In this document: positions 17,131 through 27,588 of the stretch, in pieces
Layout: each line of letters begins with the position of its first letter
Position numbering within the stretch: position 1 is the stretch's first letter
Virus record (IMG/VR): IMGVR_UViG_3300027754_000278
Coordinates: 1 to 32,676 of that record
Source: a virus
DNA: 32,676 nucleotides
Direction: 5' to 3' (one strand)
Made by a program: the position numbers and the translations under genes
Notes under the pieces: generated by a model
Told to the model about the DNA's origin: nothing
What the model saw: only the letters and a program-made list of their open reading frames with translations
Database searches by the model: none

Positions 17131-18066
17131 CTAAAAACGCTTTACGAGCCTGACAATCGCCGCCGTCGCCAGCTTTTTCTGGTCCGCCGATTTGGTGTAC
17201 AATTCCACCATGGCCAGGGTCGCGTGGCCGGTGATGGCGGCGATCTCATGGGCGGTGCATCCGGCATCGGCCAGATCGGCGGCTGCCAGCTTTCGCAGGC
17301 CATGGACGTTGAGATGCGGGCGGAAACCGTGCCGGTCGAGCAGGCGCGACATTGTTGTTGATAGGTGGTTTGCCGACCACATCTGCCCGCACTCGCTGGT
17401 CAATATGTGAGTGCTGGTGGCGTCGCGCTTCCACGCGTCCAGCTCGGCACGCAAAATCGGATGCGCCGGGATTTCCAATTCTGCGCCGGTTTTCTGCTGT
17501 TTGACCCTGATCATCGAGCCGTCGTAACTGCGCCAGGTCATCGCGATCAGATCCGCGCGCCGCTGCCCGGTGTAGCGCGCCAGGATCACGGCGCGGCGCA
17601 GGGCCTCGGGAAATACGGTCACGGCGTAGTCGGCCTCGGCAGGCGTCCAGGCGGGCAGGTGGCCACCGGGCAGGGCCTTGGCGCGCTCGATGGGGATATG
17701 GTCGATCCACTCGCGGTCAACCGCCCAGCGGAAAAGGACGGCGGCCGTCCGCATAAAAACGTTCGCCGCCCCGTTGCCTCGGGTTGCGGCGATCGCATCA
17801 CGGATTGCAAGCAGGTTTTTGCGTCGGATCGCTGAGGCCGGCAAATCGGCCAGGCCCTCTAGGTCGCGCAAATAATAGGTGCGGTTTTGGTGTGTGGCCG
17901 GCGCTAGGCCGAGCCATTCCGGGCTGAGGCGGTAGGCTGCGATCAGTGCGCCGAGGCTGTCGGGTGCCAGGCGGGGCGCGCGCTGTGGGGTCTTGCTATA
18001 TCGATACTCCCGCTCGGTTCCGTCCGCCAGTCGCCGTTTTACGACGCGCTCTTTCGATGATCGCAC
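17131..18066 (-). CDS. int: Tyrosine integrase
   Basis: 311 residues from GTG 18066; an in-frame TAA lies directly before it and AGGAG sits about 8 bp upstream, so the start is firm. The N-terminal part (residues 35-130) is a core-binding-type helical domain. The catalytic domain shows Arg169 (ARYTGQRRADL), Lys192 (QQKTG), His255-x-x-Arg258 (VHGLRKLAAADL), His281 (ITGHAT) and the nucleophile Tyr290 (MVELYTKSA), the full tyrosine-recombinase set. It would integrate and excise the phage. Its start lies within the excisionase-like gene (71-nt overlap), and it is last in the leftward operon. Confidence 0.95.
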   Translation of the reverse strand: MRSSKERVVKRRLADGTEREYRYSKTPQRAPRLAPDSLGALIAAYRLSPEWLGLAPATHQNRTYYLRDLEGLADLPASAIRRKNLLAIRDAIAATRGNGAANVFMRTAAVLFRWAVDREWIDHIPIERAKALPGGHLPAWTPAEADYAVTVFPEALRRAVILARYTGQRRADLIAMTWRSYDGSMIRVKQQKTGAELEIPAHPILRAELDAWKRDATSTHILTSECGQMWSANHLSTTMSRLLDRHGFRPHLNVHGLRKLAAADLADAGCTAHEIAAITGHATLAMVELYTKSADQKKLATAAIVRLVKRF

Positions 18067-19723: not shown

Positions 19724-20134
19724 CTATGTTACCAATGGCGGGCGCGGCATCGGTGCCCACATCAGCCAATGATTGCGGGATGTTGCCCTGCCATGCACCA
19801 TGATGGCGTCTTCAATGCCATCGGCGATCAACCCGACGCTGACCATATCGCCATCGGTCACAAGGCAATCCCAGCCTTCCGGCATTGAGACGAGGGGACG
19901 CCAAACAATCGTCGATTTGCCGATCTCGCGTTTGCCCTCCTCGTCATCGAGGGCGCATTCGCCGTGAGTAGTGATGAAGCAGTCGTGCGGGTCATTCTTG
20001 CGGGCGCGGCTTTTTTGTATCCAACCCAGCGTTTCCATGTTCTTGAGCACCTTGGCACTAGGCCGGTCGGCATTTTTGGGGCGCGGCGTGCGGGGGGACA
20101 GAAACAGCAAATATCGTTTTTCGGTCGGGGTCAC
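19724..20134 (-). CDS. DUF551-like protein with N-terminal helical extension
   Basis: 136 residues. The first 60 look like a small winged-helix or helical segment (SAKVLKNMETLGWIQKSRAR). From residue 75 on, WRPLVSMPEGWDCLVTDGDM and HWLMWAPMPRPP match the pattern of DUF551 proteins: W-P-L-S-x-x-P at the start, V-x-D-G in the middle, and W-x-P-x-P-x-P at the end. These are common in phages and have no known function. ATG 20134 overlaps the RecT stop (ATGA). Family by pattern memory only. Confidence 0.65.
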   Translation of the reverse strand: MTPTEKRYLLFLSPRTPRPKNADRPSAKVLKNMETLGWIQKSRARKNDPHDCFITTHGECALDDEEGKREIGKSTIVWRPLVSMPEGWDCLVTDGDMVSVGLIADGIEDAIMVHGRATSRNHWLMWAPMPRPPLVT

Positions 20135-20931
20135 GTCATCATCTCCGCGCCCTGGTCCTCGTCCTCGGCTTGGGTTGCCGCAGTCCGGCGCAATGCCTGG
20201 GAAATCAGCGCATTAAGCCTGTCGCGCAGCCCGTTGGTAAATACGTCCAGGGCCTTTTGCACGTCGGGCCGGGCGGTGATTTCGTCCACCTGATCGGCGT
20301 CGGCAGCGGCTGCAAGATCGTGTTCCAGTTCGTCGAGAAACTGCTTAGCGGTGCGCTTCGGCGGCTCGGCAGGCTCCGGAACGGCTTCAATTGTCGGGCC
20401 GGCGGTATAGGGCGCGGCTTCGGCCATTTCTTCCGGCGCATAAACGCCAAGCAGCACGCTGGGCGTCCAGCGCCGCCCCCACACTCGCACGCCATGATAA
20501 ACAAGCTGCTGATCGGGCTGCTTCTTCCAAATGTCGTTTGCCGTCTGAGCATCCCGCAGCATGACATCGACGGTTTTCGCCACCGTTTCGCCGCGTCGTT
20601 TGCCAGAAACGCGAATGCCACGCCCGGCGCCTTCTCCGAAAAACTCATAATCGATCAGACCATCAATCGCGCCTGATGTTTCAATCGCCGCATGCACCAG
20701 CGTGCCCGCAAAAAGCAGCTTTCCCTTAATGCTGAACGTGTTCTGCGCGACGGCAAACGGGGACATGCCCCAGCGCATGGCTTGCTCCACCACCATCAGG
20801 CAGTCGCCTGGGGACTGTTGCAAGTGGGCCGGCAGCATCTTGCCGCGCGCCATCAAATCGGCCAAGCGCATCGCCTGATCCATGTTTTGCGGAATGAGGC
20901 CGGTTGCTTGGTTCGAAATCGTCATAGACAT
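20131..20931 (-). CDS. RecT-like single-strand annealing protein
   Basis: 266 residues. The N-terminal half shows the RecT pattern: NMDQAMRLADLMARGKMLPA, a helical EQAMRWGMSPFAVAQNTF, and KGKLLFAGTLVHAAIETSG, followed by a beta sheet region (YEFFGEGAGRGIRVSGKR). The C-terminus is acidic (EDEDQGAEMM), as is usual for annealing proteins. It would coat single-stranded DNA and pair complementary strands in phage recombination. No exonuclease partner (RecE or lambda Exo type) lies beside it; the VRR-NUC protein at 25083 is on the other operon. It is one base away from Gp157. Confidence 0.82.
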   Translation of the reverse strand: MSMTISNQATGLIPQNMDQAMRLADLMARGKMLPAHLQQSPGDCLMVVEQAMRWGMSPFAVAQNTFSIKGKLLFAGTLVHAAIETSGAIDGLIDYEFFGEGAGRGIRVSGKRRGETVAKTVDVMLRDAQTANDIWKKQPDQQLVYHGVRVWGRRWTPSVLLGVYAPEEMAEAAPYTAGPTIEAVPEPAEPPKRTAKQFLDELEHDLAAAADADQVDEITARPDVQKALDVFTNGLRDRLNALISQALRRTAATQAEDEDQGAEMMT

Positions 20932-20932
20932 G

Positions 20933-21436
20933 TCAATTGCTCCTGATTTGAACAGCCGGAAGGCCGTTCGATAAGACAGCGCCGGGAACGGCCAAGCCGT
21001 TGTTGAGCGCAGTGCGGATAGCGGCTTTGTCGGGTTCTCTTTTGGTCTTGATAAACCCTTCCGGTAATTCGGTTTCGTCGATGATTTGAACGCCGGGCTG
21101 CGGCGCTCGCATGGATATTGTGGCCTCGGGATATTCCCGTTTACGCCAGCCCATCGTATCCATCGCGGCCAGGATCAAACCCTTGTAGCGGTCGCGGCGG
21201 GCTTCAAATCGGCGGGCACGCTCGGTTGCCTCTGTGGCGCGATACCGGGCGGCGGTTGCCATGTCATCGGAGTCCTGAACCTGCCGCACGACCTGGCACA
21301 AAGCCTTGTCCACCGCCGCCAATTCGTCGGGCAGTTCGTCGAACGACAGGAACGCATCTTCATCTTCGGCCAGGATGGCGTTCGCGCCGGATCGCAGCGC
21401 CATTAGCGCCTGTTGCAGTTTCCAATCGGCGCTCAT
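20933..21436 (-). CDS. Gp157-family phage protein
   Basis: ATG 21436 overlaps the preceding stop (ATGA) and gives 167 residues; longer in-frame starts run through the next gene and are rejected. Residues 35-90 are helical coiled-coil-like (ELAAVDKALCQVVRQVQDSD), then YKGLILAAMDTMGWRKREYP, EATISMRAPQPGVQIIDETE and LPEGFIKTKREPDKAAIRTA. This is the full pattern of the Gp157 family from Streptococcus thermophilus phages, noted in Pfam as linked to phage resistance. In recombination operons it usually stands next to RecT or ERF proteins, as here. Function is unknown; a helper of annealing is likely. Confidence 0.88.
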   Translation of the reverse strand: MSADWKLQQALMALRSGANAILAEDEDAFLSFDELPDELAAVDKALCQVVRQVQDSDDMATAARYRATEATERARRFEARRDRYKGLILAAMDTMGWRKREYPEATISMRAPQPGVQIIDETELPEGFIKTKREPDKAAIRTALNNGLAVPGAVLSNGLPAVQIRSN

Positions 21437-21738
21437 AACCCGCCTCCAAACAACCGCCGCGCCCGGTCCTGCAACCCGGCAACCCGCCGCGCTCCCGCCG
21501 CGTCCGCATGGTTTTCCCGCACGTCGTCGGCGCACCCGATCAGCGCCATTTGCAGGCCGCGCAATTCGGTCTTGTCCAGCGCGTCCGCCGCGAGCATGCC
21601 GCCGAGCTGGTCCGACATCGTTTCCAGCCGCGCCACGATGTCGGGCAAGGTGCAGATCGCCAGCAGCTCGCCGGCCTGAATGTGGTCGATCGGTTCAACG
21701 CGGGCGGCTAGGCGGCGGAATTGGGCGAGGGGGGACAT
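21433..21738 (-). CDS. Unknown helical early protein, 101 residues
   Basis: The protein is Leu/Ala/Asp-rich and all-helical (LAICTLPDIVARLETMSDQL, then TELRGLQMALIGCADDVREN). ATG 21738 overlaps the previous stop (TAATG) and the TGA overlaps the Gp157 start (ATGA). I do not recognise a family. The C-terminus ends RARRLFGGGL. Its place just before Gp157 and RecT suggests a recombination accessory role, by position only. Confidence 0.6.
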   Translation of the reverse strand: MSPLAQFRRLAARVEPIDHIQAGELLAICTLPDIVARLETMSDQLGGMLAADALDKTELRGLQMALIGCADDVRENHADAAGARRVAGLQDRARRLFGGGL

Positions 21739-25556: not shown

Positions 25557-25783
25557 CTATCGCAACCCCTCTCGCCACGCTCCTGTCGGTGCTCGTCTCC
25601 TGCCGCGATCTCGACGAGGTGGCGGCAACCTGGCGCGGCAATCAGGACACGATCAAGGGCCTGCCGCCGCACGATCTGGCGACGCTGATCCTGGCCAAGG
25701 ATCGCATCAAGGACACGCTCGATACGCTTTTGCCTGAGGGCCTCGATACCTGGGTCGCAGATTTCATGGAGGGCCGGATATGA
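25553..25783 (+). CDS. Unknown 76-residue protein
   Basis: GTG 25553 overlaps the nuclease stop (GTGA) and is preferred over 25364, which lies inside the nuclease gene. The protein is helical (LATLLSVLVSCRDLDEVAAT then WRGNQDTIKGLPPHDLATLI). It ends PEGLDTWVADFMEGRI and overlaps the next start (ATGA). Family not recognised; possibly a helicase accessory protein by position. Confidence 0.6.
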   Translation: MTIATPLATLLSVLVSCRDLDEVAATWRGNQDTIKGLPPHDLATLILAKDRIKDTLDTLLPEGLDTWVADFMEGRI

Positions 25784-26172
25784 AAGCCGCGCCATGGTTC
25801 CCGCGTTACTGCACCCAGGTCGTTGCCGCCTACGAGGCCGGCCATCTGACGTTCGACGACGCGGCGGAAATCTTCGCCAACACATGCGCCACGCACCCCG
25901 ACATGATCGTCATGGGCGAGCTACTCGAAAGCGTCGGGGATGCCGCGCTGGTCGTCGCCATGCGCGCGTTGACCGATGCCGCGCCGGTTATGGGCAGCGC
26001 CAAAATCGCCCGCGCCATCGCACCGCATATCCAGGCCGGCAAAGCGCGCGGCCACATCATGATTGCAGCCTATCGCGCGGCGGATGGGTCGATGTCGGCA
26101 CGCCAGGTCGAGCGGATTGTTCACGAGGAAATTACAGCAGCCGAGCGGGAGCTTCACCTTGTCGCAGCATGA
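25780..26172 (+). CDS. Unknown helical protein upstream of helicase, 130 residues
   Basis: It starts by ATGA overlap. Long amphipathic helices are visible: FPRYCTQVVAAYEAGHLTFD, DDAAEIFANTC, DAALVVAMRALTDAAPVMG, and a basic C-terminal part (GSMSARQVERIVHEEITAAE). It overlaps the helicase start by 14 bp. It may be a loader or partner of the RepA-like helicase, but no family is recognised and the role rests on position. Confidence 0.6.
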   Translation: MKAAPWFPRYCTQVVAAYEAGHLTFDDAAEIFANTCATHPDMIVMGELLESVGDAALVVAMRALTDAAPVMGSAKIARAIAPHIQAGKARGHIMIAAYRAADGSMSARQVERIVHEEITAAERELHLVAA

Positions 26173-27439
26173 GGACTTCACCAAGGCCGATGCGTTCCTG
26201 GCCAAGCGTCGGGCGGCTGTCGCTGCGGCGGAGGCAGAAGGCCAGGCCGCAATAGAGGTCGATGACGGCTACTGGCACGGTTTCGAGCAAGCCAACGAGG
26301 ATCAAGCGCCGGCCAAGGTCGTCGATATGCAAGGGCGGACGGTGGAACCAACGGATAAGCTGCCTCTCACCTATTTTGCCGACATCATGCCGTCCCTGGA
26401 AGCTAACGATTTTGTGCAGGGCCTCCTATTTGCCGGCACGTTCGGCGTATTCTACGGCGAGCCGGGCAGCGGCAAGACCTTTCTAGCGACCGATCTGGCG
26501 TTGAGCGTGGCAGCCGGCCTGGAATGGAACGGCAAGCGCGTTGACATCGGCGGCGTGATCTATTGCGCCCTGGAAGGCATCACCGGCTTTCGCAACCGCG
26601 TTGCCGCATGGAAGCTTGAACATGACACCCTAGACGGGCCGGTTCACTTCGCATCCATCCAATCCAGCATCAACATGCTCGCGCCCGGGGCCGATGTCGA
26701 AACCCTGATCGGGCGCGTCAAAGAAGCGGCGGCAAACCTCTGCATCCCGGTCAAGCTGGTGGTGATCGACACCCTATCCCGATCGCTCCAAGGCGGCGAC
26801 GAAAACAGCAGCGTCGATATGGGCGCGCTCATCGCCAACGTGCATCACGTCATCGCTGAAACCGGCGCAATGGTCTTGATGGTCCATCATAGCGGCAAGG
26901 ACGCTGCAAGAGGCGCACGCGGCTGGTCGGGCCTCAAGGGTGCCATCGATACCGAGGTCGAAATTACCCGGTCAGACGAAGGCCAGCGCGGCGCAAAAGT
27001 GGTCAAGCAGAAGGAGGGCGAGGATGGGGCCGATTTCCCGTTCAGCCTCGACATCGTGACCCTCGGCCAGAACCGACACGGCGAGGATGTCACGACGTGC
27101 GTGGTTAAATTCGACCAAGAGGCAACCCCGGCAGTCGTCGCAAATGCCAAAATAAAGGGCCACGCTGCCCGCGCTTTGTCCGTTCTGCATGATCTGATTG
27201 TCGAGAATGGTAGGACTGGTTTCCCAGGTGTTCCGTCAGGATGCCCGTCCATCCCCGAGGAATGGTGGCGGGAGCGGTTCTACGATCGCACGATTTCGGA
27301 CGGGAAAGCTGAAGTCAAGCAGGATAGCAAGCGCCATGCCTTCAACCGCGCCGCAGAAGAATTGACCGAAAAGCGACTTGTCGGGGTCAGCAAAGGCCGC
27401 GTTTGGTCCGTCCGACACCAGACAGGAGACCGGACATGA
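26159..27439 (+). CDS. RepA-like hexameric replicative helicase (AAA_25)
   Basis: TTG 26159 has GGGAG about 8 bp upstream and gives 426 residues. ORFs from 26063 would run far into the previous gene. The ATPase core shows Walker A GEPGSGKT (100-107), a strand with an acidic residue (VIYCALEG, 133-140), Walker B LVVIDTL (200-206), and MVHHSGKD (241-248) followed by RGWSGLKGAIDTEVEI. This is the pattern of RSF1010 RepA-type AAA_25 helicases. Residues 370-420 form a winged-helix-like C-terminus. It would unwind the phage origin; iterons overlap its last codons. Confidence 0.85.
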   Translation: MSQHEDFTKADAFLAKRRAAVAAAEAEGQAAIEVDDGYWHGFEQANEDQAPAKVVDMQGRTVEPTDKLPLTYFADIMPSLEANDFVQGLLFAGTFGVFYGEPGSGKTFLATDLALSVAAGLEWNGKRVDIGGVIYCALEGITGFRNRVAAWKLEHDTLDGPVHFASIQSSINMLAPGADVETLIGRVKEAAANLCIPVKLVVIDTLSRSLQGGDENSSVDMGALIANVHHVIAETGAMVLMVHHSGKDAARGARGWSGLKGAIDTEVEITRSDEGQRGAKVVKQKEGEDGADFPFSLDIVTLGQNRHGEDVTTCVVKFDQEATPAVVANAKIKGHAARALSVLHDLIVENGRTGFPGVPSGCPSIPEEWWRERFYDRTISDGKAEVKQDSKRHAFNRAAEELTEKRLVGVSKGRVWSVRHQTGDRT

Positions 27440-27564
27440 CCCCGGACATAACCGGACATAACCGGACACGGACGGGCGCAAGGCACCCGGACAAACCGGA
27501 CACGAAAGGGGGGGTATATATGTATCATATATCCCCTCCCGTGTCCGGCTTTGGTGCCCGGACA
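27430..27564. other. Putative replication origin: CCGGACA iterons and AT-rich hairpin
   Basis: CCGGACA occurs at 27430, 27442, 27452, 27462, 27487, 27496 and 27558, and inverted (TGTCCGG) at 27542. Copies two to four are exactly 10 bp apart. Two extensions are common: ATAA and ACGG/ACGA. Between copies lies an AT-rich stretch (27515-27532) inside a hairpin whose arms start GGGGTATATA and end ATATATCCCC (one bulge). This matches the layout of iteron origins: repeats beside an unwinding element, next to a RepA-type helicase gene. No dedicated initiator was identified; the small proteins around it are candidates. Confidence 0.65.
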
Positions 27565-27588
27565 TTTTTTGAAAAGAAGGGGAAGTGA
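27436..27588 (+). CDS. Possible 50-residue ORF spanning the iteron array
   Basis: ATG 27436 overlaps the helicase stop (ATGA), and its TGA (27586-27588) overlaps the next GTG (GTGA). The product begins MTPDITGHNRTRTGARHPDK and ends GARTFFEKKGK; its sequence is largely dictated by the repeats beneath it. Coupling at both ends argues for translation, while the repeat content argues that the DNA is the functional part. Either or both may hold. Confidence 0.42.
   Translation: MTPDITGHNRTRTGARHPDKPDTKGGVYMYHISPPVSGFGARTFFEKKGK

Follow-up and report, generated by a model that had tools for sequence, protein, structure and literature searches.

A dense cluster of short repeats at the 3' end of a phage helicase gene raises the question of whether the cluster is a replication origin and, if so, which protein recognizes it. 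The DNA analyzed here, referred to as the window, spans the whole of an IMG/VR virus record (32,676 nt). The original prediction for this locus was a plasmid-style iteron origin beside a RepA-like helicase, with a zinc-ribbon protein (27585) or a helix-turn-helix (HTH) protein (28012) as possible initiators. The window encodes portal, terminase, and tail proteins in addition to the following functions, based on which the phage is probably temperate and equipped with its own recombination functions.

17131-18066, minus strand: integrase
20131-20931, minus strand: RecT-like annealing protein
20933-21535, minus strand: Mu Gam-like end-protection protein

No primase was identified in the window.

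Organization of the repeat array

The predicted number of repeats was correct: eight copies of CCGGACA, seven direct and one inverted, are present within 135 bp (27430-27564).

27430-27436, plus strand: repeat 1, CCGGACA, overlapping the last codons of the helicase gene
27442-27448, plus strand: repeat 2, CCGGACA
27452-27458, plus strand: repeat 3, CCGGACA
27462-27468, plus strand: repeat 4, CCGGACA
27487-27493, plus strand: repeat 5, CCGGACA
27496-27502, plus strand: repeat 6, CCGGACA, left arm of the hairpin clamp
27542-27548, minus strand: repeat 7, inverted copy, right arm of the hairpin clamp
27558-27564, plus strand: repeat 8, CCGGACA, followed by TTTTTT

Successive direct copies are 12, 10, 10, 25, 9, and 62 bp apart, so that copies 2 to 4 are the three described earlier as spaced at exactly 10 bp. 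The array indeed begins within the last codons of the helicase gene (GGA GAC CGG ACA TGA, with the stop codon at 27437-27439), its first copy being at position -10 relative to that stop codon. Outside the array, only two single copies of CCGGACA are found in the whole 32,676-base record. With eight copies in 300 bp, the array is the densest 7-mer cluster of the genome; the runner-up has four, and a cluster contained at most five copies in simulated genomes of the same dinucleotide statistics (n = 100).

An AT-rich stem-loop had been proposed among the repeats. The stem-loop is present and larger than proposed, but it is AT-rich at its center only, and the array overall has a GC content of 60%. 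The hairpin core, GGGG-TATATATG / CATATAT-CCCC (27508-27540), is clamped by the arms CCGGACACG (27496-27504) and CGTGTCCGG (27540-27548), so that pairing between the inverted repeat at 27542 and the direct repeat at 27496 closes the hairpin. Folding of the 156-nt region is strong (z = -5.1 as RNA and -4.6 as DNA), and no shuffled sequence was equally stable.

27496-27548, no strand assigned: clamped hairpin with TATATATG/CATATAT center, candidate unwinding or extrusion site between two repeat sets

Alternatively, the copies at 27542 and 27558 can form a 7-bp GC hairpin (TGTCCGG-loop-CCGGACA) that is followed by TTTTTT (27542-27570). This is a possible terminator-like element built from the repeats.

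A RepA-like helicase with a predicted C-terminal winged helix

26063-27439, plus strand: open reading frame of 458 codons, RepA-like (AAA_25) hexameric helicase (Pfam AAA_25, E 1.3e-37; PHROG 2850 / 906)
27149-27403, plus strand: C-terminal winged-helix domain, proposed to bind the origin (model residues 268-352; AlphaFold2), covarying with the repeat word
27329-27343, plus strand: K-R-H-A-F codons at the start of the recognition helix (model residues 328-332), identified by per-column analysis and in an independent set

Translation probably starts at the TTG at 26159, given that the open reading frame overlaps an upstream gene (25780-26172). RepA of RSF1010 is the sole match of the helicase in a sequence-profile search of the PDB, and the best Foldseek matches are structures of RSF1010 RepA (1nlf, 1olo, and 1g8y). 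An AlphaFold2 model built from ten relatives (me4b949cabae3, mean pLDDT 79) comprises a RecA-like core and a C-terminal winged helix with the elements H271-287, E301-303, H304-315, H325-341, E345-348, and E351-354, of which residues 325-341 are the predicted recognition helix. The RSF1010 RepA chain has 279 residues and is thus too short for such an additional C-terminal domain. None of the libraries searched recognized a fused primase domain in the window helicase.

The array accompanies the helicase gene in related phages and prophages

We sampled relatives by protein, blind to the motif, and determined how often the most frequent 6-mer occurs in the 600 bp surrounding the stop codon of the helicase gene, with a threshold of at least seven copies. 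An array was present at the helicase 3' end in 74 of 78 viral and 46 of 79 bacterial loci. By comparison, the threshold was reached in 1/78 and 3/78 control regions located 1.2-1.8 kb downstream and in 12/78 and 3/79 in-gene controls. A later motif-blind sample gave 86 arrays in 157 loci, compared to 1 in 124 controls. The loss of the repeats from relatives that keep the helicase, named in the original prediction as evidence against an origin, is thus not seen in 74 of the 78 viral relatives, and a minority of more distant relatives have no recognizable array.

In the reverse approach, 2.9 million viral contigs were scanned for three close copies of CCGGACA or GGGACA, and a helicase was then sought. 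Among the matches listed, a helicase 3' end was within 300 bp of 23/120 CCGGACA arrays and 35/120 GGGACA arrays, on the same strand in 21 and 31 cases, respectively. The reversed word, which was compared with the real words by helicase association and not by numbers of matches, gave 0/120 among the matches listed. Scans for relatives with the single protein retrieved no genomic locus and one viral locus, an alignment of distant helicases contained no block conserved enough for scanning, and a broader genome survey added few helicases. Overall, the array accompanies the helicase gene in hundreds of loci and is not particular to this phage, but common across the relatives of its helicase.

The closest relative found (L005; 69% identical) has an array of TGGGACA in the same place with a spacing of 12, 10, 10, 26, and 9 bp. 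Arrays of GCGTGACA, TTTATACA, and CGGTACA are located there in Rhizobium phages 16-3 and RHph_X2_25, a Roseobacter phage, and an Idiomarinaceae phage. In 56 non-redundant loci retrieved by protein, the first copy starts a median of 5 bp past the helicase stop codon, there are about eight copies per array, and both orientations occur in 53. Spacing between successive copies of the same direction peaks at 9, 10, and 12 bp. Stems of at least 10 bp are present in 54 of 57 related arrays, compared to 9 of 57 control regions, and an AT-rich 20-mer is present in only 10 of the 57 arrays. Iterons in both directions around a palindrome or AT-rich region are therefore found in this family, the palindrome being clearer than the AT-rich part.

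A palindrome core of the form CCC-TTTA/TATA/TAAA-GGG recurs in 26 of the 57 arrays, in combination with very different repeat words (for example, L005:1284-1316, L284, L313, and L393), and in none of the controls. It is possibly an extrusion or priming site. Because TTT follows within the next 14 nt in only 4 of these 26 arrays, the cores are not ordinary terminators. About 300 bp past its array, L005 additionally carries a 31-nt inverted repeat (L005:1624-1699; GCGTTATGTTATAACATAACACG...).

Among the arrays from the motif-first scan, many others adjoin genes of VapE, DUF5906, D5, DUF927, and DUF3987 primase-helicases; GGGACA or CCGGACA arrays with inverted copies are located beside such genes in L043, L064, L065, L142, L146, L157, L170, and others. 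These arrays are often oriented opposite to the gene, and ACA-ended words are shared by unrelated helicase classes.

Covariation of the repeat word with the recognition helix

The repeat words of the relatives vary (CCGGACA, CGGGACA, TGGGACA, CGTGACA, CGTAACA, and others) in their first four bases, with ACA as the usual ending (149 of the 172 words called, with a caller that favors ACA placement). Behind related helicases in L342, L358, L367, L371, L374, and L375, we observed words not ending in ACA (for example, ACTTTC in 18 copies, TCCGCA, and TACGGA), which may represent a different recognition class. Covariation was analyzed only for loci with a word ending in ACA.

For a training set of 76 non-redundant helicases (<90% identical), Mantel tests with 2000 permutations related distances between words to distances between protein domains. 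The correlation was r = 0.05 for the ATPase core (467 of 2000 permutations as high) and r = 0.25 for the winged helix (1 of 2000). Along the sequence, the word signal climbs up to the recognition helix, and the best-associated columns are 329, 332, 330, 326, and 331, which include residues 329 to 332 of the K-R-H-A-F segment. K329 was accompanied by G at base 2 in 29/29 training cases and Q329 by C in 11/11; K or R at position 330 was accompanied by G at base 3 in 57/59, and Q or V by other bases in 10/10.

These residue rules were written down before new loci were retrieved. In the resulting test set of 23 new helicases, K329 was paired with G at base 2 in 4/4 and Q329 with C in 1/1, K/R330 with G at base 3 in 6/7, and Q/V330 with a base other than G in 6/6. 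A rule for residue 332 was weak in this set (8/12 and 2/5). Mantel correlations for the 23 new helicases were 0.16 for the core and 0.43 for the winged helix. Across all 99 non-redundant helicases, the 12 residues at the start of the recognition helix correlated with the word at r = 0.58, compared to r = 0.06 for the ATPase core. Given the rest of the winged helix, the recognition-helix start retained r = 0.515 (0/2000 permutations as high), and the rest of the winged helix given those 12 residues had r = -0.03. The permutations model phylogeny incompletely, and the contrasts between domains within the same proteins are the safer part of these results.

Part of the association may reflect joint inheritance, because the array adjoins the codons of the winged helix. 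The signal is concentrated on one helix, however, and simple co-inheritance of neighboring DNA is therefore inadequate as an explanation. On a tree of the ATPase core, base 2 changes about 30 times, a number that is not reduced relative to shuffled labels. Among 18 disjoint closest pairs with different bases at position 2, 15 also have different residues at position 329. All 12 pairs with C versus G, a count that leaves aside pairs with other bases and the pair of the window and L005, change in the same direction, with Q, S, or R on the C side and K, R, or E on the G side. Columns other than 329 also differ in excess in those 18 pairs, so that the pair test supports residue 329 without singling it out; it is the Mantel and per-column tests that single out this residue.

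The window helicase has R329, the sole class with an ambiguous base 2, together with H330, and its word is therefore no strict test of the code. The exception formed by the window and L005, with the words CCGGACA and TGGGACA, R329 in both, and residue 330 being H and K, respectively, indicates that R329 alone does not set base 2.

Natural exchanges of the winged helix together with the array, between helicases with cores 87-97% identical, were observed among L233, L645, and L654 and between L009 and L213. L233, with the word CGGGACA, and L654, with TCCGACA, have helicases that are 97% identical in the core and 25% in the winged helix; those of L009 and L213 are 87% and 30% identical in these two domains.

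Taken as a whole, the sequences of about 100 related phages and prophages indicate recognition of the repeats by the helicase through a partly readable amino-acid-to-base code, and the covariation points to its own C-terminal domain as the part that recognizes the iterons.

Comparison with known origins

The window has the same layout as crr of satellite phage P4 (X51522), where short, ACA-ended iterons of the GGTGAACA type, some direct and some inverted, immediately follow the 3' end of the gene that encodes the helicase-initiator alpha. Our blind cluster method recovers both iteron regions of P4, crr and ori1. P4 alpha is described in the literature as combining origin binding, helicase, and primase in one protein, and it is of the AAA+/SF3 class. 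P4 differs in its protein, alpha instead of the RecA-fold RepA-like helicase of the window's relatives, in having two iteron sites instead of one array, and in its repeat words.

Likewise, the rep-ori regions of PICIs and SaPIs have the origin directly 3' of the initiator-helicase gene, with two sets of short iterons that flank a melting region and are recognized by the helicase C-terminal domain (PMC6092414; PMC7581432). SaPI Rep proteins are DUF927/D5-type helicases, by contrast to the RSF1010-RepA type found here in phages and prophages. Plasmid pRN1 and phage BIP-1 also have an origin directly downstream of a gene for a helicase with a C-terminal winged helix, including a large stem-loop, and the layout is kept among relatives although the sequence is not conserved (PMC4234260). 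Their helicase is of SF3 with an AEP primase, and no iteron array was identified as the origin there (PMC4234260).

The helicases of P4, PICIs/SaPIs, and pRN1/BIP-1 thus belong to AAA+/SF3-type families, whereas the core of the window helicase falls outside the class of alpha, D5, and DUF927 and is of the RecA-fold RepA-like type (AAA_25, 1nlf). The window array would work like an origin of the P4/PICI type without being a member by protein family. With the oriV of the IncQ plasmid RSF1010, the window shares a homologous helicase core and iterons as an origin element. In IncQ/RSF1010, iteron binding is the task of a separate RepC, and RepA serves as the helicase; RSF1010 RepA has no room for a winged helix, whereas helicase and DNA recognition are proposed to be fused here. 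In the open-access papers covered by our search, no such origins were described for AAA_25/RepA-type phage helicases.

Alternative interpretations

The original prediction combined an iteron-type origin beside a RepA-like helicase with a separate initiator. Linkage of the array to the helicase gene and a layout as in P4 crr and PICI origins (PMC6092414) support the former part, and it is the latter that lacks support. A classical plasmid-type origin, at which the zinc-ribbon protein, the HTH protein, or another initiator recruits the helicase as in RSF1010, would fit a helicase core that is closest to RSF1010 RepA and the presence of genes for zinc-ribbon and HTH-like proteins beside the array. 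Relatives of the zinc-ribbon protein are encoded in only 6 of 415 related loci, though, and relatives of the HTH protein in 0 of 415; the word tracks the helicase's own recognition helix, located in a domain for which RSF1010 RepA is too short. We consider a separate initiator improbable. In general profile scans, as opposed to a RepC-specific one, no window protein scanned matched a known replication initiator. Covariation with a helicase domain argues for recognition rather than firing, and the winged helix might accordingly bind the array as an accessory site that functions in incompatibility, copy control, autoregulation, or packaging. P4 provides a precedent in having two iteron regions, ori1 and crr, of which crr is annotated as a cis-required region with the origin marked elsewhere. 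By contrast, the array is the densest repeat cluster of the genome in the window as well as in Roseobacter phages CRP-831 and CRP-811, so that no second iteron site is apparent. Moreover, the functional origin of PICIs is the region 3' of rep (PMC6092414), and a position downstream of the gene is unlikely for an operator. An accessory site is unlikely on these grounds. GC skew was uninformative on the origin in both the window and the Roseobacter phages. The original prediction also included theta replication and possible copy-number control by handcuffing; the latter, in which the initiator pairs iteron arrays, carries no signature in the sequence that would set it apart from other iteron origins.

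The strong folding, the hairpin with TTTTTT at 27542-27570, and the enrichment of stems in related arrays could also be accounted for by an RNA element, that is, an intrinsic terminator or attenuator that ends the helicase transcript, with the repeats giving alternative hairpins. This is very unlikely considering the rarity of T-tracts behind the related hairpin cores and that eight direct copies at 9-12 bp, as well as a repeat word that covaries with a helix of a protein, would be superfluous for a terminator; an Rfam scan of the window gave no match near the array. A terminator could coexist with an origin. Even less credible are initiation sites for a primase or primase-polymerase with ACA as the start signal, for which one might cite the many relatives that are fused to, or encoded beside, primase domains and the comparison of SCCmec primase start sites with the iteron region (PMC7581432). 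It is the helicase winged helix that the four variable bases track, and the window helicase is itself without a recognized fused primase domain.

Proposed mechanism and implications

We therefore return to the interpretation of 27430-27564 as an origin. The array, its linkage to the helicase gene, the predicted winged-helix fold, and the covariation between residues and bases were observed computationally. This region is quite likely a phage replication origin with an iteron array recognized by a self-loading helicase encoded directly upstream, and based on sequence comparison and modeling the helicase itself is most likely the initiator. We infer physical binding, origin firing, ring loading at the palindrome, and directionality. 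The winged helix of the RepA-like helicase would bind 7-bp iterons (NNNN-ACA), in which bases 2 and 3 would be specified by residues 329 and 330, located where the recognition helix begins. With direct and inverted copies about 9-12 bp apart, several helicase subunits would be positioned around the central palindrome, where the RecA-fold ring would load on opened DNA without a separate initiator. Because its own winged helix covaries with the word, this helicase is nearer to the P4/PICI arrangement, in which the initiator is the helicase, than to plasmid iterons of the classical kind, which depend on a separate Rep protein.

RepA- and DnaB-type ring helicases are textbook examples of a need for a separate initiator and often a loader. 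It appears reasonably likely that widespread phage and prophage replicons use a RecA-fold helicase of the RSF1010-RepA type as their own origin-recognition protein. In these, a fused winged helix would read NNNN-ACA by a simple code, and winged helix and array would be exchanged as a specificity module through which close relatives gain new origin specificities. If this is true, the initiator-helicase fusion known from P4 and SaPIs evolved on a second, unrelated helicase fold, and many phage and prophage origins could be located from sequence alone by inspecting the region downstream of a single gene. With the residue-base rules and the natural swaps of winged helix and array, origin specificity, the incompatibility of co-infecting phages, and their evolution would become directly testable.
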